NCBI RefSeq assembly: GCF_009725235.1
Contig: NZ_WJFC01000094.1
Location: 1 to 47,217 of the forward strand
Reading direction: 5' to 3'
Source of the DNA: Scytonema sp. UIC 10036
Lineage (GTDB): Bacteria > Cyanobacteriota > Cyanobacteriia > Cyanobacteriales > Nostocaceae
DNA length: 47,217 nucleotides
Part shown: positions 19,994 to 43,742 of the stretch, piece after piece
Layout of the letters: the number at the start of each line of letters is the position of its first letter
Position numbering within the stretch: position 1 is the stretch's first letter
Position numbers and translations under genes: made by a program
Notes under the pieces: generated by a model
Database searches by the model: none
Told to the model about the DNA's origin: nothing
What the model saw: only the letters and a program-made list of their open reading frames with translations

Positions 19994-22066
19994 TTATCCT
20001 CTACGATTCACTTCAAAAATCTCTGTATATTCAAACTCATTAGGGCTTTGTCTCACTAAAGGATATAGTTCCCCGTCCAATTCAATGTAATCCTGTTCGC
20101 AATCAGGTTTAGAAGAGTAGTAAGTCAGTACATATTCTCTACCGATTCTGTCTACCATTTCTTCTTCTACTTCACCTCGCCACTGTGTCTTGCTCACTAA
20201 CACAATCAACTGATTTGCTAATTTGGGAATTGTCTTGGCAGTTTGTCTGCGAGAGATGACGTCTAAACTCCCAAAAGGTGAGTCCATTACAATTGGAAAG
20301 GCACTGCTATCAGGAATCATCAACATTTTCCTTTTTTCACTCCATTCCCTTACCCTATCGATAATGCTGGCAATAAACGATAAGCTTAAAATCTGATTTT
20401 CTCCTGTAGAAGCAGCAACAGGCATTTCTATACCAGCCGTATTCTCTACTAATGTCAGTTCGTATTTCTCACTGATTTTGGGCATATAAGGAGTAAAGGA
20501 AATTTCGCTAAAAATTTCTTGTACCCGCTTTTCTAGTTGAAATCGGAACTGCTTTTCTTGTCGTTCTCTAACTAAAGTTAATCTGTCTATAGCATCTTGA
20601 GTAGACGCAATCCGTCGTTGTGTCAGGATTTGCTTTTCTTCGTTTAATTTCTGCTTGGCTACTTGCTTGACTACAACTTCTAACTCTGTTTTAAAATTCG
20701 CAATTTTCTGCTGATTTGCACCTTCCTCTAGTATTAAATGTCTGATTTTTTCTTCTATTTCATCCAATCGCTTTTGTAAATTGCTAATTTCCTCATTGGC
20801 ATCTTTTCTCAATCTTTCTTGAATATTGTCTAACTCATTTTCAATTTGAGATATGGTTTGTCTGAGTTGATTGATTCTGACTTGTTCTCTATCGACTTCT
20901 TCCCAAAAGCTAGTTGCTTGCTTATCAATTCCATCGACTTGTGCTAACATACGAATCGCTGTCTCTTCTACCTCAGAAGAGCCAACTCTAGCCAATAATT
21001 TTTCTATATTCTCGTACCCTTGGCTACCCTTTCGGAACTTTGTACCACAAATACATTGTTGAGAAATCAATAAGTCGTTGACAAATTCTTTGGAAATCCC
21101 AGAGGTGAATTCTCCTTTCTGTTTGAAAGCATCAACAATTTCTTTAAATTTTAATGCAGTTCCAGAAAGTAAAACGGTGTAACCTCGTGTGGAAATAATT
21201 TTTTTAAGTGTATCTCTAGAGTCTCTTAGCGTTTGTTGATTGAATGATTTCTGCTTTTCTAATTCTTGACGCCTTTCTTCTAATTCTTTGGCTGCACTGA
21301 GTTCTCTAAATCGGACACTGGTTTCTTTTCTAAAGGTTTCTTGATATTCTAGCTCTTGTTGAATTTCTAATTGTCTTTGATGAATGGTATCTAGTTCATT
21401 TTCTATCTTTTCTTGCTGTTTTAATAATTGTTTTGTTTCCAAATCACCAATAGATTTTAACTCGCTTTCTAAGCTTCTTTTTGCTTCAATTAGATGTTTG
21501 ATAGAACGATTGATGACTTCAACACCTAAAAAAATCTTTGTGGCTTCGGCAATTTCTGCTTTTTTGTCAGAACGAACTATCTTTTCAATCCGTTCACCAT
21601 CGAAGAAAAAATATTGATGTAAACTGACGGGTAAAATTTGATTGATGATATCTTCTGGGTTTTGGGTGGGAAAATTCCAGATACCATCTGCACTGGCAAA
21701 TTGTAAATATAATTCTGTTTTGCCTGTATCAAAATCCGTTTCATTTTTATAAGCACGAAACTCTCGTTTGACTCGATAGCGTATGCCTTCATGTTCCCAT
21801 GCTATCTCAACCCAGCACTCTATGGGTTGACCCGATTTTGCTTCGGCGATCGCACGCTTATTGACTAATTGTTCTGATGATGCAAAAGCGGCGCTAAATT
21901 TCTCATACAGCACCCAAGTAAATGCATTGAGCAAACTTGTTTTTCCAGAACCATTATTCCCGTGAATCACGGTTGTGTTACGAGGATCTCCAACCGCGAG
22001 AGCAATTTCCGGAGTTTTGCCATAAAAAGAGCGAAAGTTACACAGTTTAATGGAAAGCAGTTTCAT
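19994..22066 (-). CDS. SMC/Rad50-like ATPase of DndD/LmuB type
   Basis: 690 aa. Starts MKLLSIKLCNFRSFYG, the hallmark of DndD/RecF/Rad50-type ATPases. Walker A is IHGNNGSGKTSLLNAF (~34-49). The long middle is coiled coil (LLKQQEKIENELDTIHQRQ and later stretches), broken by a hinge with CICG (a minimal zinc-hook-like motif). An ABC signature STGENQILSLSF and Walker B FPIVMDSPFGSLD follow. Such ATPases serve DNA-end sensing in phosphorothioation (Dnd) or Lamassu-like defence. The ATG overlaps the preceding small gene's stop (ATGA). No nuclease or dndBCE gene is adjacent, so the system assignment is open. Confidence 0.85.
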   Translation of the reverse strand: MKLLSIKLCNFRSFYGKTPEIALAVGDPRNTTVIHGNNGSGKTSLLNAFTWVLYEKFSAAFASSEQLVNKRAIAEAKSGQPIECWVEIAWEHEGIRYRVKREFRAYKNETDFDTGKTELYLQFASADGIWNFPTQNPEDIINQILPVSLHQYFFFDGERIEKIVRSDKKAEIAEATKIFLGVEVINRSIKHLIEAKRSLESELKSIGDLETKQLLKQQEKIENELDTIHQRQLEIQQELEYQETFRKETSVRFRELSAAKELEERRQELEKQKSFNQQTLRDSRDTLKKIISTRGYTVLLSGTALKFKEIVDAFKQKGEFTSGISKEFVNDLLISQQCICGTKFRKGSQGYENIEKLLARVGSSEVEETAIRMLAQVDGIDKQATSFWEEVDREQVRINQLRQTISQIENELDNIQERLRKDANEEISNLQKRLDEIEEKIRHLILEEGANQQKIANFKTELEVVVKQVAKQKLNEEKQILTQRRIASTQDAIDRLTLVRERQEKQFRFQLEKRVQEIFSEISFTPYMPKISEKYELTLVENTAGIEMPVAASTGENQILSLSFIASIIDRVREWSEKRKMLMIPDSSAFPIVMDSPFGSLDVISRRQTAKTIPKLANQLIVLVSKTQWRGEVEEEMVDRIGREYVLTYYSSKPDCEQDYIELDGELYPLVRQSPNEFEYTEIFEVNRRG

Positions 22067-29400: not shown

Positions 29401-29472
29401 GCCAGCATAGCACAGTGGTAGTGCATCCGACTTGTAATCGGAAGGTCGTCGGTTCAAATCCGACTGCTGGCT
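29401..29472 (+). tRNA. tRNA-Thr (anticodon TGT)
   Basis: Acceptor GCCAGCA (29401-29407) pairs with TGCTGGC (29465-29471), discriminator T at 29472. Anticodon stem TCCGA/TCGGA with loop CTTGTAA, anticodon TGT at 29433-29435; T-loop TTCAAAT. CCA is not encoded. A CAST-type transposon end begins 24 bp downstream. Confidence 0.97.
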
Positions 29473-29566
29473 TTAAGATAAACAACGACATCTAATTGTC
29501 GATTGCCAAATTATTTGTCCGCGTTGTGGTTGTGATACAGTCGCAACCTCACCCCGGCTTTGGCTC

Positions 29567-29866
29567 TTGCCAAAACCTCCTCTCACCCTTGGGAAACCTT
29601 CCAGCATTCCTTCAAAATACGACTGGCAAAGCTTACGTTTAAAAGATGGTGATGCTTTAGAAATCCAGTACTGCCACACTTTAGAAAACCTGGGTAAAGA
29701 AAAAGGACTATTGGGCGTTATCTTCTGCAAATCGCAAAACAAAATTCAAGACCCTGCCAAACTCAAGCGACTGGTAGAACTTATCAATTAGGAAACTTGG
29801 ATTGGTTTAGATATCGACGTAAAAGGGAAAATTTACGTATGTTTGCACAAACTCAGTAATCAATAA
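29567..29866 (+). pseudogene. HsdM (type I methyltransferase) fragment, cargo of the CAST relic
   Basis: Reads KYDWQSLRLKDGDALEIQYC, LENLGKEKGLLGVIFCKSQN, KIQDPAKLKRLVELI, then an in-frame TAG and ETWIGLDIDVKGKIY. These are successive blocks of the N-terminal region of type I N6-adenine methyltransferases. Roughly 90 codons of ~500 remain, with at least one stop and no catalytic NPPY motif. Its 3' end overlaps the tniQ fragment head to head. Confidence 0.7.
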
Positions 29867-30042
29867 GACTTTTGATACTTTACCATATCCGCAAAAGTCA
29901 GAAAACACCGCTGACACCAACCATCTACCCACACTGCTGGAACCTTAAATTTTGCCTTACAGTTTGGACATTCTGACAACAAAGTTAATTTGTGGCTCGC
30001 GCACCCTTGCGTTACCTTCAACTGCCACTCAATCTTGTGGCA
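29860..30042 (-). pseudogene. tniQ C-terminal fragment (type V-K CAST)
   Basis: CHKIEWQLKVTQGCASHKLT, then ECPNCKAKFKVPAVWVDGWC, QRCFLTFADMVKYQK and stop. This follows closely the C-terminal zinc-finger region I recall for the short TniQ of V-K CASTs (CPNC, W-DG-C, RC, FAEM-K-QK). About 60 of ~165 residues remain. The join to tnsB sequence at ~30043 is direct, so one internal deletion removed the 3' part of tnsB, all of tnsC and the start of tniQ. Confidence 0.85.
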
Positions 30043-30408
30043 AGGCGAGTAATACGCTTACTGCCTTTATTACCTTCCTTATATGTATTGATAATGAACT
30101 GCTGCCAATCAGAATCTATTCGATGTTTGCCTTTATCAGCCCGTGTCGTGGTTTAAAGTGCAGCTAAACCCTCCTGTTCCCATTTTTTTACTAACCAACC
30201 GTCGTACCGTCCGCACTGACTTACCCAGTTTAGCTGCTACCTCCCTTTGCCTCTCTCCGTAGGTGATGCGATCGCAAGGTTCTAGCAATTTCTGAATCAT
30301 TTCCAGCAAATGCCTATCATCTGCTGAGAGTTCAGTCACTATCTCATTGGTTTCTGTCTCTCGATCGCCCTTGTGAGGATCATCCAGCATATTTACATTA
30401 ATGTTCAA
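30043..30408 (-). pseudogene. tnsB N-terminal fragment (type V-K CAST)
   Basis: Starts MNINVNMLDD and reaches MIQKLLEPCDRITYGERQRE, AAKLGKSVRTVRRLV, the N-terminal HTH of V-K TnsB. An extra A in the run at ~30184-30190 shifts the frame. In the shifted frame the homology continues WEQEGLAAL, stop, RADKGKHRIDSDWQQFIINT, YKEGNKGSKRIT, then ends at the tniQ join. It matches the corresponding blocks of the Scytonema CAST TnsB as I remember them. The DDE domain is gone. Confidence 0.88.
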
Positions 30409-30440
30409 TAAAAACGTAGTTGTATTGTACTATCTAAAAA

Positions 30441-30664
30441 ACACTTATTTTGTCAATTTTGGTGAAGATGTTGGCTCAAGTCACTTTTCAAGCAAGGACA
30501 GATATTTTGTCAAAAATTCAAAAGAGGACAGCTATTTTGGCAACGAATGTTTACTATGGTATTTTCAGCCTAAAACAATAAAACTCTTACTTGGCAAGGG
30601 TTTTAAGGTCAGTATTTTCAAGGACACGATTTTGTCAAGTGGTCAGATAATTTGGCAATCGACA
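30441..30664 (-). repeat. Array of TnsB-site-like repeats at the CAST left end
   Basis: Direct repeats of the form GGACAGNTATTTTGTCAA at ~30441-30456 (partial), 30496-30513, 30526-30543, 30607-30621 (partial), 30622-30638 and 30641-30658. The last leads into the terminal ATCGACA. Multiple spaced TnsB sites, with the terminal one at the tip, are typical of Tn7-like ends. Confidence 0.8.
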
Positions 30665-30685
30665 AATTCCGCAGATGGCGATCGC
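30664..30685 (+). repeat. 22-bp direct repeat, copy 1 (at CAST left junction)
   Basis: AAATTCCGCAGATGG continuing CGATCGC, identical to 32848-32869. It begins exactly at the CAST tip. Confidence 0.8.
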
Positions 30686-30941: not shown

Positions 30942-31697
30942 ATGGCACAGCGACAGTATCGTAACCCGCCTATAGAAGAAGCAGTCTGTGAGTTTCGCTT
31001 TGCTCCTGGTTCGGCATGGAATTTTACAGTACCGGGTTTGTTTTATGAAAAAATAAAAGATTTTTACACGGGTGAACCACGACAGCAGAACTTAGTGGCG
31101 GCTGAATTCCAGACAAGTCCTCAGCCTCAAAATTCCGAAATTAGGGTAAGGCAGACAGTAAACAAGATACTATTTCCGTCTGCGAACACCACAAGATTAG
31201 TGGGCGTCGGACCCGATATTCTAAGTATCCACATCCTTCGCCCTTATGAAGGATGGGACGAGTTTAGGGGAAGAATTTCTCAAGCATTAGACGTTTATTT
31301 AGAGGTCATTAAACCTGTTGGAGTAAAGCGCACTGCTCTGCGCTACATAAATCGAATAGTTCTTCCAGAGAAGCAGAACATTGATTTAAGTCAGTACTTT
31401 ACCGTATATCCTCAGATTCCAAATGAGATTCAGACTCGGGTATCAGGATTCCTGAATCGAACTGACTTAATCTATGAGGATCTTCCAATCCAGTTAGGAC
31501 TAACTATATCAGATGCTTCAGACCCTATCGAAAACCCCGAAATTATCATTGATTTAGAAATTTCTCAAGAATGGACAGATAGCTTTTTAGCCCCTGAAGA
31601 AGCGCTTTCCAGTTTAAATGAATTAAAACAGAGAGAGGGGCAAGCCTTTGAAAGTTTGATTACCGATCGCACTAGGGAGTTATTCGATGGTGACTAA
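30942..31697 (+). CDS. TIGR04255-type protein, first gene of an uncharacterised operon
   Basis: 251 aa, soluble. The opening QYRNPPIEEAVCEFRFAPG and the block VGVKRTALRYINRIVLP, with a late PEIIIDLEISQEW, match the sporadically distributed family TIGR04255 as I recall it; no biochemical function is known to me. Its last 11 bp overlap the next gene. The operon sits between two 22-bp direct repeats next to a CAST relic, consistent with horizontally moved cargo. Confidence 0.8.
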   Translation: MAQRQYRNPPIEEAVCEFRFAPGSAWNFTVPGLFYEKIKDFYTGEPRQQNLVAAEFQTSPQPQNSEIRVRQTVNKILFPSANTTRLVGVGPDILSIHILRPYEGWDEFRGRISQALDVYLEVIKPVGVKRTALRYINRIVLPEKQNIDLSQYFTVYPQIPNEIQTRVSGFLNRTDLIYEDLPIQLGLTISDASDPIENPEIIIDLEISQEWTDSFLAPEEALSSLNELKQREGQAFESLITDRTRELFDGD

Positions 31698-32304
31698 ACC
31701 TTATGGTCGTTCTTATAGCGAACATAAATCCGAGATGACACTGTTATCCGATGAAAACGAGAAATTAGCCAGAGATTCATCCGCGCAATCGAGGGAAGCC
31801 GTGCAAAGCGTGTCAGTCGATGGACCAATAACTCTTGTTTCATCCAGCGAAACCTTAAACGCGCAAAATTGGGCGGATAGGCTTAAAGTCGCAAATTCCG
31901 AACTTCAAAGGGTTACGGCTGTTTTTGGGGGAGCTAAAAATTATGAACCTTCCCAAGCTTCGGAGCGACTTAACAACCCAACCATTCACAAAACTTACAG
32001 AACAATCTCTAGCTTGGGAGCAGCAAATAAAACTTTTGTCTACGCAATAGAATGGCTGGAGCGGCTGCGTGCAGCTGCTTTAAATGAGCAAATGTGGTGG
32101 CGTGAGCCACTGATAAATTTGGGTGTTGACTCAGAAATCGTTTTTGAATGGTGGTACGAGAATAAGAAAATAACCGTTTATATTCTGGATAATACAGCAG
32201 AATACATTAAAGTGTGGGGACACGATATCGACAACGAAATGGAGGACGGTTCGGCAACATCACGCGATGAAATCCTCAACCTTTGGAAATGGCTAGTTTT
32301 GTAG
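31687..32304 (+). CDS. Unknown 205-aa protein, second gene of the TIGR04255 operon
   Basis: Starts 11 bp inside the previous gene. The N-terminal ~60 residues are polar and probably disordered. The C-terminal half has a Trp-rich acidic region (EQMWWREPLINLGVDSEIVF, EWWYENKKITVYILD) like that of proteins co-occurring with TIGR04255. No membrane segment. Function unknown. Confidence 0.75.
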   Translation: MVTKPYGRSYSEHKSEMTLLSDENEKLARDSSAQSREAVQSVSVDGPITLVSSSETLNAQNWADRLKVANSELQRVTAVFGGAKNYEPSQASERLNNPTIHKTYRTISSLGAANKTFVYAIEWLERLRAAALNEQMWWREPLINLGVDSEIVFEWWYENKKITVYILDNTAEYIKVWGHDIDNEMEDGSATSRDEILNLWKWLVL

Positions 32305-32307
32305 GGG

Positions 32308-32781
32308 TTGACGGTGGATGATGTAGTTACAGATGATGAGCTATTGTATCGTTGTGTTTTTCATGGTGGAAATTATTACCAGATGGAGGAACACGGGGTG
32401 CGGCTTAGCTCGCAGGCATTTGCCGATCGAGGACAAGCGCCCTCCGTAGATCGGGCAAAACTTTGCAATCATAACCCGCAGTGGACGCAGAAAAACACAA
32501 ATGACGCTGTTGTAAGTTTGGTTGCTGGTGACATTCGGATGATAGACGATATCGTCCAGAAGGACGCTAAAGGCAAAGAGATTATCTATGCTTATAAAAT
32601 CGATGTCCACCCAAGACCGCTTGGGGACAACCCAGCCCACGCACAAATTGAGCCATCGCCAGCGTACCAGAATCGGAATGTTTTCAGAAAAGTATCAGAA
32701 AAGCTGGCACGGCTGGCAACCGAGAGAGTTGCCCACCATGGCTGGGAAATTGAGCCATATGAATTGCGACTCAACAACTAG
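32308..32781 (+). CDS. Unknown 157-aa protein, third gene of the TIGR04255 operon
   Basis: Starts at a TTG (32308) or GTG (32314), 3-9 bp after the previous stop. Contains VVTDDELLYRCVFHGG, a later LVAGDIRMIDDIVQKDAKG, and the C-terminal HHGWEIEPYELR. Basic/acidic mix, no recognised family. Cotranscription with the two genes upstream is very likely from the spacing. Confidence 0.7.
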   Translation: MTVDDVVTDDELLYRCVFHGGNYYQMEEHGVRLSSQAFADRGQAPSVDRAKLCNHNPQWTQKNTNDAVVSLVAGDIRMIDDIVQKDAKGKEIIYAYKIDVHPRPLGDNPAHAQIEPSPAYQNRNVFRKVSEKLARLATERVAHHGWEIEPYELRLNN

Positions 32782-32887: not shown

Positions 32888-35278
32888 TCAATCCGATGTA
32901 CTCCACAAGCTTAGCTGCACAAACGTTTCCCCTTGTACTGATGGCTGATTTTTCTTACAAAATTCAGATTTAGTTAGCCACGTGCAATTATCTTTAGAGT
33001 ACGGCTGACTTCGATCTAGCAGTCCCAATCCCATTCCTTCTTGGTAAGAGTTGTACATATCCTCTTTAAAGTTTTCAAATTTTCGCCACCGCTCGCACAA
33101 GCTACTCCCTTCATAAGATTTGCTGGCAGGATTAGTGCGATAATGACTAAGCCTAGCCCAAATTCGATAAAACTTAGTATTCGTCATTCCGTGAGTTTGT
33201 GGCGCTTCTTGAGCGCTTTTCCAGTCGCAATTGTCCGGTGCAAATGGCTTGTTACGATCGCGTCGAATTAGCTGCAATCCCCGTTCGTAAGTTGAAGCCA
33301 TGTCCTCACAAAACAAAGCAAAGTCACGCCAGCGATCGCAAATACTAGAACCGTTGTAGTTTTTGGATTCGGGATTGCAATACTCGTTAACGGTTCGCCT
33401 CCAAAGCTTGTATATGGGTGTTCCAAATAAGGGGTGTGCTTGTTGATTGCCCCGCACCCAATTCCAATAACAGTTTTCTTTCGAGTACGGCTCGTTGGGA
33501 TTCATTAGGAAAAGGATTTTGCCCTCCCGATACCCCTGACTTATATCTTCGTAAAACAATGTAAAGTCTTGCCATCGAGAACACACGGGGATTCCTTCAT
33601 ATTTCTTTGAGTTGGGATTGGCTTTGTGATACACCAGATGAGACCAAAGACGATAAATCCTAGTCTTTGTCATGCCGTGAGTTTGATACAGTTCGCGCCT
33701 GGGAACCCACACGCAATTTTCTTTGGAATAAGGAAGTTTGGGATCGACTGGTTTAAGGTATAAACCTCGGTCGTAATTGTCGCCTGCGTCTTCGCAAAAA
33801 TTTCTAAAATCCTTCCAGCGATCGCAAATACTAGAGCCGTTATACTCTTTAGAATTTGGGTTAGTTAGTCCATGAACTAAGCCACTCCAGTATTTGTAAA
33901 ACCGGGTCTTTGGCGCATCCCTCGACATACCATGCGGCTTTTTCGCATCAATTCGCCCCGCGTGAATTCGCTTTTCAGCCGCCTCTACACTAATTCCTTC
34001 CCTTTTGGCTAGGGCTTCAGCAGCTGCTTGTACGGTTGGGTAAAGAACCGGAGCTCCTGGTAGTCTGGTGGGCTTACCTGGAGAACCACCGATTTCACCG
34101 CCCAAAGTAACGTTGTAGCCGTTGGGGGTTAAGGTGTTTAATCGCTGAATCCATTGACGCTCCTTAATTCGGAGTTCTTTAGGATTGGCAGCACAATCAA
34201 TAGACTCAATCGTAAAATTTTCTTTTCCGAATTCAGCAATCGCGTCGTGAACCAAAGAGCGATCGTGCCTGTAAACCTGCTCTAAATGCCTTTCCCACCG
34301 TTCTTTCAAAGACGTAGTAGTTAACCCTATGTATTGCTTGCCGTTTACGCAATTAGTGATTGTGTAAATAATTCCATTGTCATATCCAAGCTTGGGAGGA
34401 GTAAACAAAGCTGCCTCTGGCGTCATTCCTTCCGCGATACGTCTTTTAACAGTTGTAGAACTTACGGGAGCACTTAGTTGACGCACTGCGTCTTCTATGC
34501 CGTTGTAAGTTACACCGTTCACCCTAAAAGAGTGTTTCGGGTCGTGGGGTTCATCATCAAACGCTTGCGCCACAGTCCAACCTGCACCTAGCCGCTTCAG
34601 CACAACCCAATAATTTTTGCTTAATTTTTGACACGCTTGCTTGGTGCTAGTGTAGTGAATACCCTTGTACTCAAATCCGTGCTGAGCTTTCGTGGTAGAT
34701 TCTTTTGCACACGCGGGACAGCCACTTTTTCTGATGTGATTGCTGGGTGTTTGCTCAAAAGCGCCGTGCTGGGGACAAACAATAGTCACTTTAGTAGCGT
34801 GATTAACATACCTCACTTCGGAATAATCATATTTGTCACCGTGGGTGGCACGAGCTTTCTCAACAAATTCTAACAGCGTTAATGTCTGATTTTCATTAGC
34901 ACATTTCACACAACCCGAACCATTTATATGAGCTTTTGGATCTTGTTCAAAATCACCATGAACGGGACAGATAATCGTCACTTTGATATCGATTCGCTTG
35001 TAAACAACCTTGCTATAGTCATAGCGATCGCCGTGGGCTTCGCGAAATTTATCAATGATGGTGGATTGGGTATGGCGCTGGCGATCGGCATAGCAGTTGC
35101 GGCAGCCCACGCCTTTAAGGTGGTGGTAGGGAGCGATCTTAAACTCGCCGTGGTGGGGGCAAATGATAGTAACCTTACTTGCGGAATTGACATACTCAAC
35201 TAGGGAGTAGTCGTACAAATCGCCGTGCTTGGCTTGAGCTTGGGCGATGAATTCATATACGGTTTTACGTTGTGGCAT
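32888..35278 (-). CDS. Repeat-built GIY-YIG endonuclease-like protein, 796 aa
   Basis: The ATG at 35278 has AGGTGA upstream. Three N-terminal zinc-ribbon repeats (~8-62, 70-126, 135-190) share H-G-D-x-Y-D-Y-S, K-V-T-I-x-C-P-x-H-G-x-F and G-C-x-x-C. Two NUMOD-like segments follow (~200-245 and ~250-295). A GIY-YIG nuclease core is at ~302-395 (GIIYTITN, YIGLT, R328, E373, GYNVTLGG). Four ~80-aa C-terminal repeats (~449-527, 533-606, 618-686, 695-768) share HGM-T-x-(I/F)Y-x-W, NP-SK-Y-G, C-RW-F-F-ED and P-(Y/F)-x-NC-W. Each module type is known from homing or phage nucleases. The catalytic residues are present, so it is probably an active DNA nuclease. Followed on the same strand from an upstream unknown gene. 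Confidence 0.85.
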   Translation of the reverse strand: MPQRKTVYEFIAQAQAKHGDLYDYSLVEYVNSASKVTIICPHHGEFKIAPYHHLKGVGCRNCYADRQRHTQSTIIDKFREAHGDRYDYSKVVYKRIDIKVTIICPVHGDFEQDPKAHINGSGCVKCANENQTLTLLEFVEKARATHGDKYDYSEVRYVNHATKVTIVCPQHGAFEQTPSNHIRKSGCPACAKESTTKAQHGFEYKGIHYTSTKQACQKLSKNYWVVLKRLGAGWTVAQAFDDEPHDPKHSFRVNGVTYNGIEDAVRQLSAPVSSTTVKRRIAEGMTPEAALFTPPKLGYDNGIIYTITNCVNGKQYIGLTTTSLKERWERHLEQVYRHDRSLVHDAIAEFGKENFTIESIDCAANPKELRIKERQWIQRLNTLTPNGYNVTLGGEIGGSPGKPTRLPGAPVLYPTVQAAAEALAKREGISVEAAEKRIHAGRIDAKKPHGMSRDAPKTRFYKYWSGLVHGLTNPNSKEYNGSSICDRWKDFRNFCEDAGDNYDRGLYLKPVDPKLPYSKENCVWVPRRELYQTHGMTKTRIYRLWSHLVYHKANPNSKKYEGIPVCSRWQDFTLFYEDISQGYREGKILFLMNPNEPYSKENCYWNWVRGNQQAHPLFGTPIYKLWRRTVNEYCNPESKNYNGSSICDRWRDFALFCEDMASTYERGLQLIRRDRNKPFAPDNCDWKSAQEAPQTHGMTNTKFYRIWARLSHYRTNPASKSYEGSSLCERWRKFENFKEDMYNSYQEGMGLGLLDRSQPYSKDNCTWLTKSEFCKKNQPSVQGETFVQLSLWSTSD

Positions 35279-35294
35279 GGGTTCACCTAGATCG

Positions 35295-35741
35295 TTAAAC
35301 TCTCTCGTCACTTTCAAGCGACTTCATTTGCTGGGCAATGCTGTCCCACGGCGCTACATTGACCTCCACCAACTCACCCTCGTCTGTAATCTCAGCCCAG
35401 TCAGGATAGCGTTCTAGTGCCTTGCGAACGCTTTGCCTCAATATCGCGTCTCCATCTTCCCAGCACTCAAACAAGAAGTCAAAACCGGGGCATTCACCGA
35501 TATTGCACTCCCTAACAGTTTTAGAGGCAACAAGTATGGTGCGGGTTGGATTTACTGGGTCATGCCTCATAAAGACTCCGAGGACACTGAAACATGGGGA
35601 GAGGAAAGCGTTAAGCCACTGACAGAAGCCGATTTGCTCCAGATGATTCAGAAAGAAGTCAACGCGCATAACGTCAAAGTCGCCGAACTTACCGAGCAAC
35701 CGGAGTTGATTAAAGGAGCGCAAGAATGAACACTGAAGCAC
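35295..35741 (-). CDS. Unknown protein upstream of the GIY-YIG gene (N-terminal part doubtful)
   Basis: The 3' two thirds read like real protein (CPGFDFLFECWEDGDAILRQ, then SVRKALERYPDWAEITDEGE), acidic and with Trp. The first ~60 codons do not, and they lie antisense to another plausible gene. The stop is 16 bp before the GIY-YIG start, so an operon is likely. I read it as a gene whose original N-terminus was replaced at a rearrangement near 35510-35540. Confidence 0.45.
   Translation of the reverse strand: MLQCSFLRSFNQLRLLGKFGDFDVMRVDFFLNHLEQIGFCQWLNAFLSPCFSVLGVFMRHDPVNPTRTILVASKTVRECNIGECPGFDFLFECWEDGDAILRQSVRKALERYPDWAEITDEGELVEVNVAPWDSIAQQMKSLESDERV
35433..35729 (+). CDS. Unknown protein opposite the GIY-YIG operon
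   Basis: The C-terminal ~65 residues (NKYGAGWIYWVMPHKDSEDT, then PLTEADLLQMIQKEVNAHNV) look like genuine protein. The first ~30 codons are antisense to the minus-strand gene and less convincing; a start at the ATG 35563 is possible. The stop shares ATGA with a small downstream frame that has a strong AAAGGAG, supporting translation on this strand. Confidence 0.45.
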   Translation: MPQYRVSIFPALKQEVKTGAFTDIALPNSFRGNKYGAGWIYWVMPHKDSEDTETWGEESVKPLTEADLLQMIQKEVNAHNVKVAELTEQPELIKGAQE

Positions 35742-35788: not shown

Positions 35789-35841
35789 CTTTAAATAAAT
35801 TGCCAGAGCTAAAATTAAGAAGACAAACGCTTGCGACCATT

Positions 35842-36399
35842 ATGTTCACCATTGCGGATTTACAAGAATTACAAACAGAGCACCCAGACTGGCAAATGGA
35901 ACTAGTGGACGGGAGTATTGTTGTTATGGGTCCATCGGATTACGAATCAGAAGAGATTGGTGCCGAGTTTGTGCGACAGCTTGCAAACTGGGTACGCCCT
36001 CGCAAGTTAGGGAGAGTAACGGGTTCCAGTGCTGGATTTATTCTGCCAACTACAAAAGAGCAGGGCGAGCGGGACTTACGCGCTCCTGACGTGTCGTTTG
36101 TCAAAGCCTCGCGCCTGAAAAAGACCAAGCGTGATTTTGTACAGTTAGTTCCAGACCTAACAGTTGAAGTAAAATCCAAAACCGATCGCGTTAAGGTTTT
36201 GGTAGAAAAAATTCAACTTTTCCTAGAACTGGGGAGTACTGTTGGTATCTTGATTGACCCCGATGAACGAACTGTTACAGTTTATCGGCTCGGTCAAAGC
36301 CCTACAGTTTTAAGGGATAGCGATCGCCTGACGCTACCAGACTTATTACCGGGATGGGAATTGGTAGTATCGGATTTGTGGCCGCCTGAATTTGATTGA
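35842..36399 (+). CDS. Uma2 family (DUF820) PD-(D/E)xK protein, copy 1
   Basis: 185 aa from the ATG at 35842 (upstream in-frame codons are not conserved in the second copy). Uma2 features: WQMELVDGSIVVMGPSDYES, RAPDVSFV (metal Asp), LTVEVKSKTD (ExK), then QLFLELGSTVGILIDPDERT. The fold is nuclease-like and catalytic residues are present, but the biological role of the very numerous cyanobacterial Uma2 proteins is unknown. Tandem duplicate of the next gene. Confidence 0.9.
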   Translation: MFTIADLQELQTEHPDWQMELVDGSIVVMGPSDYESEEIGAEFVRQLANWVRPRKLGRVTGSSAGFILPTTKEQGERDLRAPDVSFVKASRLKKTKRDFVQLVPDLTVEVKSKTDRVKVLVEKIQLFLELGSTVGILIDPDERTVTVYRLGQSPTVLRDSDRLTLPDLLPGWELVVSDLWPPEFD

Positions 36400-36488
36400 A
36401 CTTGCTTTACTAGGAGGGCTTATCTCGAAATCCGTCCGATGTGATTTAATGTCATAAGATCGGTCAATCTTCCATAATTTTTAGTGAT

Positions 36489-37046
36489 ATGTTTACCGTT
36501 GCGGATTTACAAGAACTACAAACAGAACACCCAGATTGGCAAATGGAACTGGTGGATGGGAGTATTGTTGTCATGGGTCCATCGGATTATGAATCAGAAG
36601 AAATTGGTACCGAGCTTGCCGCTCAACTTCGCAACTGGGTTAAGCCTCGCAAACTAGGGAGAGTAACGGGTTCCAGTGCTGGATTTATTCTGCCAACTAC
36701 ACAAGAGTCTCCTGGTAGGGACTTACGCGCTCCTGACGTGTCGTTTGTCAAAGCCTCGCGCCTGAAAAAGACCAAGCGTGATTTTGTACAGTTAGTTCCA
36801 GACCTAACAGTTGAAGTAAAATCCAAAACCGATCGCGTTAAGGTTTTGGTAGAAAAAATTCAACTTTTCCTAGAACTGGGGAGTACTGTTGGTATCTTGA
36901 TTGACCCCGATGAACGAACTGTTACAGTTTATCGGCTCAGTCAAAGCCCTACAGTTTTAAGGGATAGCGATCGCTTGACGCTACCAGACTTGTTGCCGGG
37001 ATGGGAATTGACAGTATCTGACTTGTGGCCGCCTGAATTTGATTGA
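36489..37046 (+). CDS. Uma2 family (DUF820) protein, copy 2
   Basis: Same length as copy 1 and nearly identical over the C-terminal ~115 residues. Differences cluster at ~43-55 (EFVRQLANWVRP versus ELAAQLRNWVKP) and around residue 75 (KEQGER versus QESPGR). The PD-ExK residues are unchanged. The ATG at 36489 follows GTGAT. A recent tandem duplication. Confidence 0.9.
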   Translation: MFTVADLQELQTEHPDWQMELVDGSIVVMGPSDYESEEIGTELAAQLRNWVKPRKLGRVTGSSAGFILPTTQESPGRDLRAPDVSFVKASRLKKTKRDFVQLVPDLTVEVKSKTDRVKVLVEKIQLFLELGSTVGILIDPDERTVTVYRLSQSPTVLRDSDRLTLPDLLPGWELTVSDLWPPEFD

Positions 37047-37744: not shown

Positions 37745-38704
37745 ATGCTAACACCTCTCAACCATGCTTTGGATGTATTAGAACGGTCATATAATATTGT
37801 TACGACAGATGATAAATCTGCTAGAGATTTCTTAGAAATACTTCATCGTAAGATGTTACTTCTCAAAACGTCTCAAACAAGATTTAGGAATTGTTATATA
37901 GCTGAATTTAACAATCTTGAGCATGAAGTGTTAATGATTGGCGAAGGTGTTGCTAGTAAAGTTGATGGAAGGCATAGTGAAGAAGATATCAACTGGGAAA
38001 TTAAAAAAGCTGAGAAAGAAATAGAGTTAGCTACAAAGCAAACAGTGGAGAAAATACAGTTGGGCTTGGAGGAGGAATTAAGTAACCTCCAAATTCATCT
38101 CGAAAAATTATTGCAATCAAGGCTGGGGCGATCTTTAGCTGAAGAAGTACAAGTTTCATCAACAAGTAGACAAAAAGTTGATTATGAAGAATTTGGAGAA
38201 ACTCAAGAAATGCCATCTTTCTTAAAAAAAAGTACTGAAGCTGTGCGGGCTATAGGAAGTTTTGCCTCAGCAGTTTCTAGAGATCTAGTTTATAACATCG
38301 GTAAATTTTTTGGTGTTAAGTTTCGCCCTTGGGGAGCGGTTAACGCTGCTAAGTTCATCAGAGGTTTAGGACCTATTATTGGAGGCGTAGGTGCAATTTT
38401 AGAAATTTTTATAGCGGTTAAACAAGAAAAGGATGAAGCAGAGTATGAGCAAAAGCTTCGTGAAGCAAGATCGGATTTACGCCAGAGCTTTAGGCAAGTT
38501 GCCTCAGAAATCAGAAGTGAGTATGAAAGGAATATTAAACTTGAGATAATTATCGGCTTTTATGAAGCTGAATTTCAAGATATTGAACGTCAGAGAGATG
38601 AACTGCGAAATAATGAAAGCTCAACAATTGAGATAGTTAATCAAATCAAAAATATGATGCAAAAAATCAAGAAGGAGATAGCTACAATAGAAAATAATTT
38701 TTAA
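37745..38704 (+). CDS. Dynamin-like (LeoA-type) C-terminal half without GTPase
   Basis: 319 aa, mostly helical. Long amphipathic coiled coils at ~75-125 and ~225-315 flank a hydrophobic stretch (~200-225, FIRGLGPIIGGVGAILEIFI) preceded by FRPWGAVNAAK. This is the stalk/paddle end of LeoA-family dynamin-like proteins, which act at membranes and are tied to toxin secretion or phage defence. No G1-G4 motifs are present, so it is either a truncated gene with a new start or a stand-alone helical partner. No GTPase half is found upstream. Confidence 0.6.
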   Translation: MLTPLNHALDVLERSYNIVTTDDKSARDFLEILHRKMLLLKTSQTRFRNCYIAEFNNLEHEVLMIGEGVASKVDGRHSEEDINWEIKKAEKEIELATKQTVEKIQLGLEEELSNLQIHLEKLLQSRLGRSLAEEVQVSSTSRQKVDYEEFGETQEMPSFLKKSTEAVRAIGSFASAVSRDLVYNIGKFFGVKFRPWGAVNAAKFIRGLGPIIGGVGAILEIFIAVKQEKDEAEYEQKLREARSDLRQSFRQVASEIRSEYERNIKLEIIIGFYEAEFQDIERQRDELRNNESSTIEIVNQIKNMMQKIKKEIATIENNF

Positions 38705-41241: not shown

Positions 41242-41469
41242 ATGCCTTACAAGTAGTACAAATACACATTATTTTAGCTAGTTTGTCAACAGATCTCCCC
41301 ATTGCTTTCACTTGGTATCGTTGTTAAAGTCTACCCTAAGCCGTGGTTTGGAAAATATTTTTCGTAATTATTGGGATTTTCTTGACGTTGAGAGCGTTGC
41401 ATTTCATGGAACAGAGCGATCGCGGAAATATGTTTAATAATAAAAATACCCCATTCTGGAGTTGTGCTT

Positions 41470-42006
41470 ATGACAGATCTTTATGGAGGAATAGATCCTA
41501 GAGACATCCCAAGTTATTCCATCAGTGATGCTGCACGCTACCTACGCATTCCAAGAGGTACAATTCGAGCGTGGACAGTGGGGCGGCGTTACCGGATTAC
41601 TTCGGGATCTAATTTCTTCAAGCCCTTGATTCCAATTCGCAATCGCAGACCACGGCTGCTTTCATTTACCAATCTCATTGAAGTTCACGTTCTTCGAGCA
41701 ATTCGCAAGCAACACAAAATTGATTTGTATAAGGTGCGATCTGCTCTTGATTTCATTGAGGAACAATTTCAAGTATCTCATCTTCTAGCCCATGAAATAT
41801 TTCGTACTGATGGCGTTGACCTGTTTATCGAGCGGTATGGTTCCCTGATTAATGCTTCAAAAAGCGGACAGGAGGAACTGAGAGATGCTTTTAATGCTCA
41901 TCTTGAACGAATTGAACCCGATGACACGGGGCTTGCAATTAAACTTTACCCCTTTACTCGCTCTCACGAGGAAGAAAGCCCTCGTATCGTCGTTATTGAC
42001 CGCTAA
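41470..42006 (+). pseudogene. VapB45-type antitoxin, N-terminal part (split gene)
   Basis: 177 native residues plus one. A MerR-like HTH (YSISDAARYLRIPRGTIRAW) is followed by LSFTNLIEVHVLRAIRK and the helical middle, then IKLYPFTRSHEEESPRIVVID. In VapB45-type antitoxins this last phrase runs directly into PRIAFGR of a DUF433 domain. Here it stops after one foreign codon, at the left end of an inserted element. The DUF433 half resumes at 44163. The ATG at 41470 is preferred over a GTG two codons upstream. Confidence 0.85.
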
Positions 42007-43742
42007 TTAAAATCTAGAGAAATCTGCATATGCGTAGATTGACTACGTTTACGAGGTTTTCTAGACCTAGATACAGCAACGGTTACTGTATCATTCCCCG
42101 TTGGGATTGCACCAACCTCGAAAAGCTCCAACTGTATTGGATTGACCAATTGTCCATGCTGACCTACAAAGCAAGTCAGTTGACAAAAAGGCGTAACCTT
42201 TCGTGCTCTGTTAAAGCGGGATGTAAAATATTTGTGCCTAGGAGTGCCTTTGACGCTCCTAGAGACCCTACTCCACTGCGACCAAACGTGCTTTCCAATA
42301 GGATAGGCGGACTTGGAATGAAGTAAGTGATGAAGTTTTGGAAGTCTTTCTGAAAATCTTCTGCCATGACGTGCAATAACGAAGGCAGCAGCAGAAGCAG
42401 AATTCATGCCATACATGGACATGAACTTGAGCATAGCGATCGTACTGCTAAAGGCAGGATTTACTTTCTTATGATAAATCCCGTATTTTGAGCAAGCACT
42501 ATCTAAAGCTTCGTGCCATTGGGAATAAGCAAATGATGAAAGCATTCTGGCAGATTTTTTTCCTTTCTCTTTAATTTGTTTCTTCTTTTCGGAAAAATCC
42601 AATTTCTCAGATGCAACTGGAAAGTTATATTGTTTTGCTTTTAATGCGATAAAGGTGGCTGCATCGCTAAAAATCGCTGCTCTTTGATTGGATGTTTTAG
42701 AATGTAAATCCAACTTGTAGTCGCCATATTCAAGCAAGTTACCTTGGGTGTCACACACAGCCCATCCAATGGAGTCCGCATTTAAGTCAATGCCAACATA
42801 GCCAGATAGATATTCGGATGTAATTTCTGGTAGGTTGATATCTGTCGTGGCAGCAACGTACCAACAATTATCTTGCCAGTAGAATCGGAGCGTGACCGCG
42901 TTGTAACCAATAGCCCACTTTTCGGTTCCATCTTTGGTTTTTACTTGATAACATCGCTCTGAAATGGATTCAACGATTTCGTGGAAGCCATGCTTGAAAT
43001 TCAATCCATCAATCCGGATGTAATCACCGCCCAATCTTTCCTCTAACGCGTAGGGAGTGCGAATAGAGAGCACAAAGCTATCCGGATTTTCAATGTAATC
43101 GAATTGCGCTAGTTGGTTGCCTGATGACTCGTCCTTGCTGCCAACCAAGACAAAACTGTTGGCAATATCTGGTAACGCGTACTTTGGTTTTGTCGCCTTC
43201 AAATGCGCCAACTGTGACTGAAGTAGATGCAATCGCCGTTTCTTTTGATGCCAACCAAATTTTGCATCTTGAAGTTGTGTTGTTTGACGTGACTTTGCGT
43301 AAATGCTACACGCTTTTTTGATTTTAGTTTTACTGGTTTTAAATCCCTTTTTCGCGCTCCTACTCTTACTTGTTAGCATATGTTCTTGTTTGGCAAAATC
43401 TTTAATTTGCTTAGAGCGTTTCTTGATGTCAGATTTTATCGACTTAATCTGACCTTCTAGGATTTTGATATGGTTGGCTCTGTTTTTGTTGGCATTAGTA
43501 ACAATTCCTTGTACTTCAGTATAGATGGAATTGCTGTATCGCTTGTTTATATTGAATAAGCGTTGTAATTCTTTGTTGCAATCAAGCTGGCTTTTCTCAG
43601 CCAGAATCATTTCCAGGCAGTGATGGCGGGCAGAGTCAATTAGATTGGAGATAGCAAATAACTCTCCCCAATGCCAAAAGTCTATTTGGTCTGTATAGGT
43701 TTTAGTTTGCTCTGTTTTAATTAACTCTGCCACGCTTATCAC
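42003..43742 (-). CDS. Large TnpB-related protein (RuvC-like, third Asp lost)
   Basis: 579 aa, longer than normal TnpB (~400). Helical, basic N-terminus (~85-185). RuvC-I at ~315-330 (GYVGIDLNADSIGWAV, D319); RuvC-II at ~374-383 (FPVASEKLDF, E379). Where TnpB has TS-C-x-x-C...D-x-D-x-NAA, this reads VNPAFSSTIAMLKFMSMYGM, NSASAAAFVIARHGRRFSER. Both the zinc-finger cysteines and the RuvC-III Asp are missing. I recall this as the 'IS200/IS605 accessory TnpB-related' family. It may be nuclease-dead and act as an RNA-guided binder or transposition factor (inference). The start at 43742 follows GGAGGTGATA. Confidence 0.8.
   Translation of the reverse strand: MISVAELIKTEQTKTYTDQIDFWHWGELFAISNLIDSARHHCLEMILAEKSQLDCNKELQRLFNINKRYSNSIYTEVQGIVTNANKNRANHIKILEGQIKSIKSDIKKRSKQIKDFAKQEHMLTSKSRSAKKGFKTSKTKIKKACSIYAKSRQTTQLQDAKFGWHQKKRRLHLLQSQLAHLKATKPKYALPDIANSFVLVGSKDESSGNQLAQFDYIENPDSFVLSIRTPYALEERLGGDYIRIDGLNFKHGFHEIVESISERCYQVKTKDGTEKWAIGYNAVTLRFYWQDNCWYVAATTDINLPEITSEYLSGYVGIDLNADSIGWAVCDTQGNLLEYGDYKLDLHSKTSNQRAAIFSDAATFIALKAKQYNFPVASEKLDFSEKKKQIKEKGKKSARMLSSFAYSQWHEALDSACSKYGIYHKKVNPAFSSTIAMLKFMSMYGMNSASAAAFVIARHGRRFSERLPKLHHLLHSKSAYPIGKHVWSQWSRVSRSVKGTPRHKYFTSRFNRARKVTPFCQLTCFVGQHGQLVNPIQLELFEVGAIPTGNDTVTVAVSRSRKPRKRSQSTHMQISLDFN

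Follow-up and report, generated by a model that had tools for sequence, protein, structure and literature searches.

Probable relic of a type V-K CRISPR-associated transposon behind a tRNA-Thr gene in Scytonema sp. UIC 10036

We analyzed a stretch of 47,217 bases of contig NZ_WJFC01000094.1 from Scytonema sp. UIC 10036 (hereafter the window), in which a tRNA-Thr (TGT) gene, detected by ARAGORN and by Rfam RF00005, lies on the plus strand at 29401-29472 and is the attachment-site gene of the 1.17-kb segment behind it. The original prediction took this segment, 29497-30664, for the relic of a type V-K CRISPR-associated transposon (CAST) bounded by two shared terminal sequences that face each other. 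The terminal sequences were borne out: 29496-29520 and 30641-30665 form 25-nt inverted repeats that are complementary at 23 of 25 positions (92%), and a search of the whole window for a 23-nt end motif, allowing up to 3 mismatches, gave only the two copies at the relic ends, with no match in 100 shuffles. The left end starts 24 nt behind the tRNA gene and is present as its terminal 30 bp only (29497-29526, plus strand), an exact 30-nt match to the left ends in loci L111 and L112. Alignment with six other left ends showed that it lacks the inner repeat resembling a TnsB site, and a discontinuity follows directly at 29526/29527. The right end is nearly complete and retains its internal repeats together with the region upstream of tnsB (30445-30664, minus strand, aligned with L103 and L106); right end and tnsB start together give a 621-nt match to relatives at 83-85% nucleotide identity, which reaches the last base. 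V-K CASTs generate a target-site duplication of 5 bp. No such duplication was found at the relic, where CTAAT precedes the left end and AATTC follows the right end, nor was one seen in G007, G180, and G213, in which both ends were read with strict TGT boundaries. The arrangement of inverted ends, with the right end beside tnsB and the left end by a tRNA gene, is that of a V-K CAST. The left end points at the tRNA gene, as in the elements of L104, L111, and G213 and as in the scheme given in the available text of PMC9938897.

Next to the right end, on the minus strand, lies the 5' end of tnsB (30044-30444), corresponding to codons 1-131 of 578 in the numbering of the L103 open reading frame (Nostoc sp. 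FACHB-973), whose true start is uncertain. Its frame is shifted by 4 extra bases and contains an in-frame TAA; a further stop is found at about codon 5 (L103 numbering), and a possible start lies after it. It had been proposed that the first ~120 codons of tnsB survive with a frameshift and a stop, in good agreement with this reading. Further along the same strand, at 29863-30048, are the last 62 codons of tniQ (about 60 had been expected), identified by comparison with ShCAST TniQ, L103, and G342. They represent codons 106-167 of 167 and show a 77% match to the TniQ of Nostoc sp. FACHB-973; the adjoining 29838-29862 is tniQ-downstream sequence, which also matches the relative.

Family names were assigned to the fragments by sequence search against solved structures (PDB). 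Pfam and NCBIfam profiles were tried and set aside, their matches to the fragments being weak, mostly to helix-turn-helix or zinc-ribbon families, and below the cut-offs. ShCAST TnsB (7svw) matched two minus-strand frames with E values of 6.2e-13 (residues 29-84) and 9.3e-18 (residues 82-131), and the strong structure matches of the TnsB pieces are to V-K TnsB only. The tniQ tail matched ShCAST TniQ at E 4.7e-20, whereas the next TniQ type in the PDB (8fcu) was 16 orders of magnitude weaker at E 4.6e-4. The best PDB matches are thus V-K TnsB, as a broken 5' piece of 131 codons, and the short V-K TniQ, as its last 62 codons. Homologues of TniQ and TnsB are also present in Tn7-like, Tn5053-like, and type I CAST families, and the weak 8fcu match could be read as a trace of one of those elements. 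We consider such an origin extremely improbable in view of the V-K TniQ and TnsB scores, and the closest complete relatives, which carry Cas12k, already contradict it.

The tnsB and tniQ pieces meet at 30044-30048, where they overlap by 5 bp of microhomology. The rest of tnsB, all of tnsC, and most of tniQ are gone at this junction. The 5-bp overlap bears out the earlier suggestion of a single deletion at ~30043 as far as the tniQ/tnsB join is concerned; that suggestion does not describe the whole segment, in which other junctions also exist. A 40-nt query spanning the tniQ/tnsB junction, with up to 3 mismatches allowed, had no match in 388 genomes belonging to the order of Scytonema sp. NIES-4073 (G001). 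Among the matches listed for the relic, none extends past the join by more than 8 nt, so there is no sign in these genomes that the deleted form has spread. This absence also argues against a non-autonomous mini-CAST, deleted elsewhere and moved here in trans by an intact CAST. Such an origin would account for the presence of both terminal sequences and the near-complete right end, but the left end without its inner repeat is a further argument against it, and we regard it as very unlikely.

The tniQ tail is followed, across a second junction at 29837/29838, by an internal fragment of a type I methyltransferase gene (hsdM) on the plus strand at 29574-29837, which carries an in-frame stop and matches 2okc_A at E 5.8e-12; no Pfam or NCBIfam match was obtained for this fragment. 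Between the left-end stub and hsdM, a host dispersed repeat (29527-29591) covers the break and overlaps the start of the hsdM match. Similar copies of the repeat were found in G001, G010, G011, and others among 12 genomes searched; it is dispersed in genomes of the Scytonema/Brasilonema clade, with no further copy within the window. The original inventory therefore stood for the tnsB and tniQ pieces and was incomplete in that the hsdM fragment, the 29837/29838 junction, and the 29526/29527 break had gone unreported.

We searched 388 genomes of the order of G001 for relatives of the segment, and 137 of them gave some match. Four (G007, G180, G213, and G342) carry a right end of the relic's family together with Cas12k, TnsB, TnsC, and TniQ on one stretch, and G180 and G213 also have both ends of this family. 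The Cas12k of G007 scored 967 bits against NF038191, the same figure being given for the Nostoc sp. FACHB-973 element. The best collinear relative among the matches listed is a nearly complete V-K CAST in G342 (L153-L154), located at a tRNA-Ala gene. Here 29574-29837 matches hsdM at 88% nucleotide identity, 29838-30048 matches the tniQ end at 85%, and 30044-30664 matches the tnsB start and right end at 83%. PADLOC classed the G342 hsdM open reading frame as a type I methyltransferase (652 bits). Since the hsdM cargo, tniQ, tnsB, and right end of G342 follow the order and orientation of the relic at 83-88% identity, three segments of a single V-K element account for window positions 29574-30664, and the proposal that tnsB and tniQ lie on one strand in CAST order is upheld. 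G342 differs in having full-length Cas12k, tnsC, and tnsB, with the Cas12k gene between hsdM and the tRNA-Ala gene, i.e., on the tRNA side; in its position at tRNA-Ala rather than tRNA-Thr; and in a left end of another sequence type. Its tniQ lacks an internal part, which, with the differing left end, counts against the reading of the segment as a decayed V-K CAST. In G342, the right end of the CAST with hsdM is closely followed by a second, divergent Cas12k gene (33735-35678 of the joined L153-L154), which has 39% identity to the FACHB-973 Cas12k, as if two CASTs stood in tandem.

The element of Nostoc sp. FACHB-973 (L103-L104) has ends of the relic's family, matches the tnsB start and right end at 85% nucleotide identity over 621 nt, and also carries type I restriction cargo. 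It differs in its size of ~32 kb, in having all four CAST genes (Cas12k, tnsB, tnsC, and tniQ) and CRISPR repeats (Rfam CRISPR-DR15), and in a left end that lies behind tRNA-Arg. Its hsdM was considered as the ortholog of the relic fragment and rejected, since it is a different hsdM with no match to the window; the G342 gene fits. ShCAST/Tn7747 and its kin resemble the relic in the sequence, order, and strand of tnsB and tniQ, in the ends, in the right end beside tnsB, and in the left end placed behind a tRNA gene that faces the element. The relic, at 1.17 kb, is far smaller than the relatives measured (~10-32 kb in G213, G180, and G007), and its genes are broken. Unlike these CASTs it has no detected Cas12k, tnsC, CRISPR, or guide: neither a relative's Cas12k used as query nor TnsC gave a match in the whole 47-kb window, no CRISPR match was obtained in it with Rfam at gathering scores, and no anchor spacer matching the tRNA was found within 700 nt of tRNA-Thr. 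The absence of these parts from the window counts against the CAST reading, as does the lack of a target duplication, and we infer RNA guidance from the relatives.

Fragments of this kind were also encountered on plasmids. A plasmid search returned three Nostoc plasmids with an open reading frame that resembles the tniQ tail, and in the two plasmids examined the tniQ remnant, annotated as hypothetical protein, stands beside a toxin-antitoxin pair of the SocA/PemK type (L001, 11963-12223; L002, 11999-12232). In L107 (9155-10902), a decayed CAST, the same pair comes immediately after tniQ, and L104 (3269-4797) belongs to the same set of observations. These observations suggest that V-K CAST cargo has spread to plasmids together with a piece of tniQ.

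We then turn to the target site. Truncated crRNAs of V-K CASTs are directed against attachment sites, mostly tRNA genes, and these sites differ even among close relatives, as stated in the available text of PMC11406308. A 17-nt anchor spacer perfectly matching tRNA-Thr is present in six loci (L018, L036, L037, L038, L053, and L055), which had been preselected. The six spacers lie 166-296 nt behind the tRNA, have a GTN PAM, and are followed by CTTTCAACCC, a remnant of the V-K repeat. Anchor spacers at tRNA-Arg (G007, G307, and L111) and tRNA-Val (G213) match with 0 mismatches and that of G342 has one mismatch to its own tRNA-Ala; G007 and L111 were already known to carry the spacer, and G342, G213, and G307 were fresh tests. 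In the window, the guides of L018, L037, and L038 point to a candidate GTA PAM (29418-29420, plus strand) with its 17-nt protospacer (29418-29437 overall), and those of L036, L053, and L055 to an alternative GTT PAM (29452-29454) with its protospacer (29452-29471 overall, plus strand). From PAM to the left end of the relic, the distance is 76 nt for GTA and 42 nt for GTT. Since the distance from PAM to left end is given as 46-82 nt, with one exception of 147, in the available part of a published survey (PMC9938897), GTA fits the relic better than GTT. The 76 nt, inside this range, is longer than the 55-63 nt measured in eight relatives (L018, L037, L038, L055, G007, G307, L111, and G213), which counts against the assignment. 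L036 and L053 belong to the six tRNA-Thr loci with anchor spacers, and their left ends are only 26 and 23 nt behind their own PAM; the spacing rule therefore has exceptions at tRNA-Thr.

Among 80 argF loci from related genomes, 73 have the tRNA-Thr gene (the other 7 are outside the hotspot count), and a CAST-like left end of one of four types was found within 90 nt at 25 of these 73 sites, all of which extend for 90 nt or more past the tRNA, whereas none of 3,397 control segments had one. Because the four reference left ends were picked after inspection of the same loci, this count is descriptive and not an independent test. The tRNA-Thr gene is a recurrent landing site of CASTs and a hotspot of guided insertion. 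By analogy with the six anchor spacers and these landing-site counts, a past RNA-guided insertion at this tRNA-Thr, with loss of the relic's own guide, is well supported; the claim that an RNA-guided transposon once used the gene is supported indirectly, through the spacers that relatives hold against the same tRNA. On the right-hand side, the first three genes after the relic (30942-32781, plus strand: a TIGR04255 protein and two genes of unknown family) were found in 1 of the 80 argF loci (L051), near tRNA-Thr and inverted, so no orthologous empty site can be defined. They are perhaps accessory genes of the hotspot.

The same tRNA gene can hold more than one element. In L055 (9480-9560), behind tRNA-Thr, a left end of the type found in the window runs for 26 bp before a second CAST left end interrupts it, 59 nt behind the GTT PAM of that locus. 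Such stacked ends raise the question of whether the relic is a chimera, in which the 30-bp left stub and the hsdM-tniQ-tnsB-right-end part came from different V-K CASTs, two or more, stacked at tRNA-Thr. This would be in keeping with a left end that gives way to unrelated repeat DNA after only 30 bp, with the missing target duplication, and with the different left end of G342, which matches the rest; nevertheless, both ends belong to one family, as their 23 complementary positions of 25 indicate, and one relative, G342, is collinear with the relic for every internal CAST piece. We judge a chimera to be unlikely. The break at 29526 lies 72 nt behind the GTT PAM, and one could envisage a layered invasion in which a V-K CAST arrived via the GTA PAM and a second CAST inserted via the GTT PAM into its left end, later to be lost, leaving the left stub and the repeat scar. 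We hold this to be rather improbable; if true, tRNA-Thr would be a site at which successive CASTs inactivate one another.

The preferred reading is that 29497-30664 is very probably the residue, probably immobile, of one type V-K CAST that inserted at tRNA-Thr and then decayed. Both ends, the collinear pieces of tnsB, tniQ, and hsdM cargo, the deletions between the pieces, and the match of the ends to those of Cas12k-carrying elements carry this conclusion and agree with the original prediction, which thus passed both of the tests proposed with it, on the database matches and on the ends. In the proposed history, Cas12k with a crRNA containing a 17-nt anchor spacer would have recognized tRNA-Thr next to a GTN PAM, most likely the GTA at 29418-29420. 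TniQ and TnsC would then have brought in TnsB, which would have inserted the element, left end first, ~76 nt downstream. Selection on the element presumably ceased later; at least two internal deletions followed, one of them with the 5-bp microhomology, the left end was truncated where the host repeat now adjoins it, and small mutations were added. Decay of this kind would have removed Cas12k, the CRISPR array, tnsC, and most other genes.

Several other genes of the window were noted in passing. A 579-aa protein (42003-43742, minus strand) weakly resembles the TnpB family (E 7.5e-11, which does not reach the family cut-off), and the gene that adjoins it on the opposite strand (41464-42006, plus) has a weak excisionase-type match. 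A tandem pair of very similar Uma2-family genes is found at 35800-37046 (plus), and a LeoA/dynamin-like helical protein at 37745-38704 (plus; PADLOC E 2e-41, C-terminal half of the model only). An 809-aa protein with a GIY-YIG homing-endonuclease-like domain (32888-35317, minus) and a DndD-like ATPase below the family cut-off (19994-22066, minus) were also recorded.

The segment is an ordinary relic of a known kind of element, with a clear history. In a literature search on remnants or degenerate copies of V-K CASTs, with preprints outside its scope, only PMC9938897 was found, which in its available text reports 12 degenerated Cas12k proteins. Degenerate V-K systems are thus already in print and tRNA genes are their usual target, and the high interest originally claimed for the relic is overstated. 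Its value is that it can be explained almost base by base by near-complete relatives, and that short CAST relics of this kind are recognizable from their ends together with pieces of tnsB and tniQ. A census that relies on Cas12k alone would overlook them, so earlier CAST activity at tRNA genes may be higher than such a census indicates. With its two alternative guide positions and stacked ends, the tRNA-Thr hotspot provides a usable natural record of repeated guided insertion.
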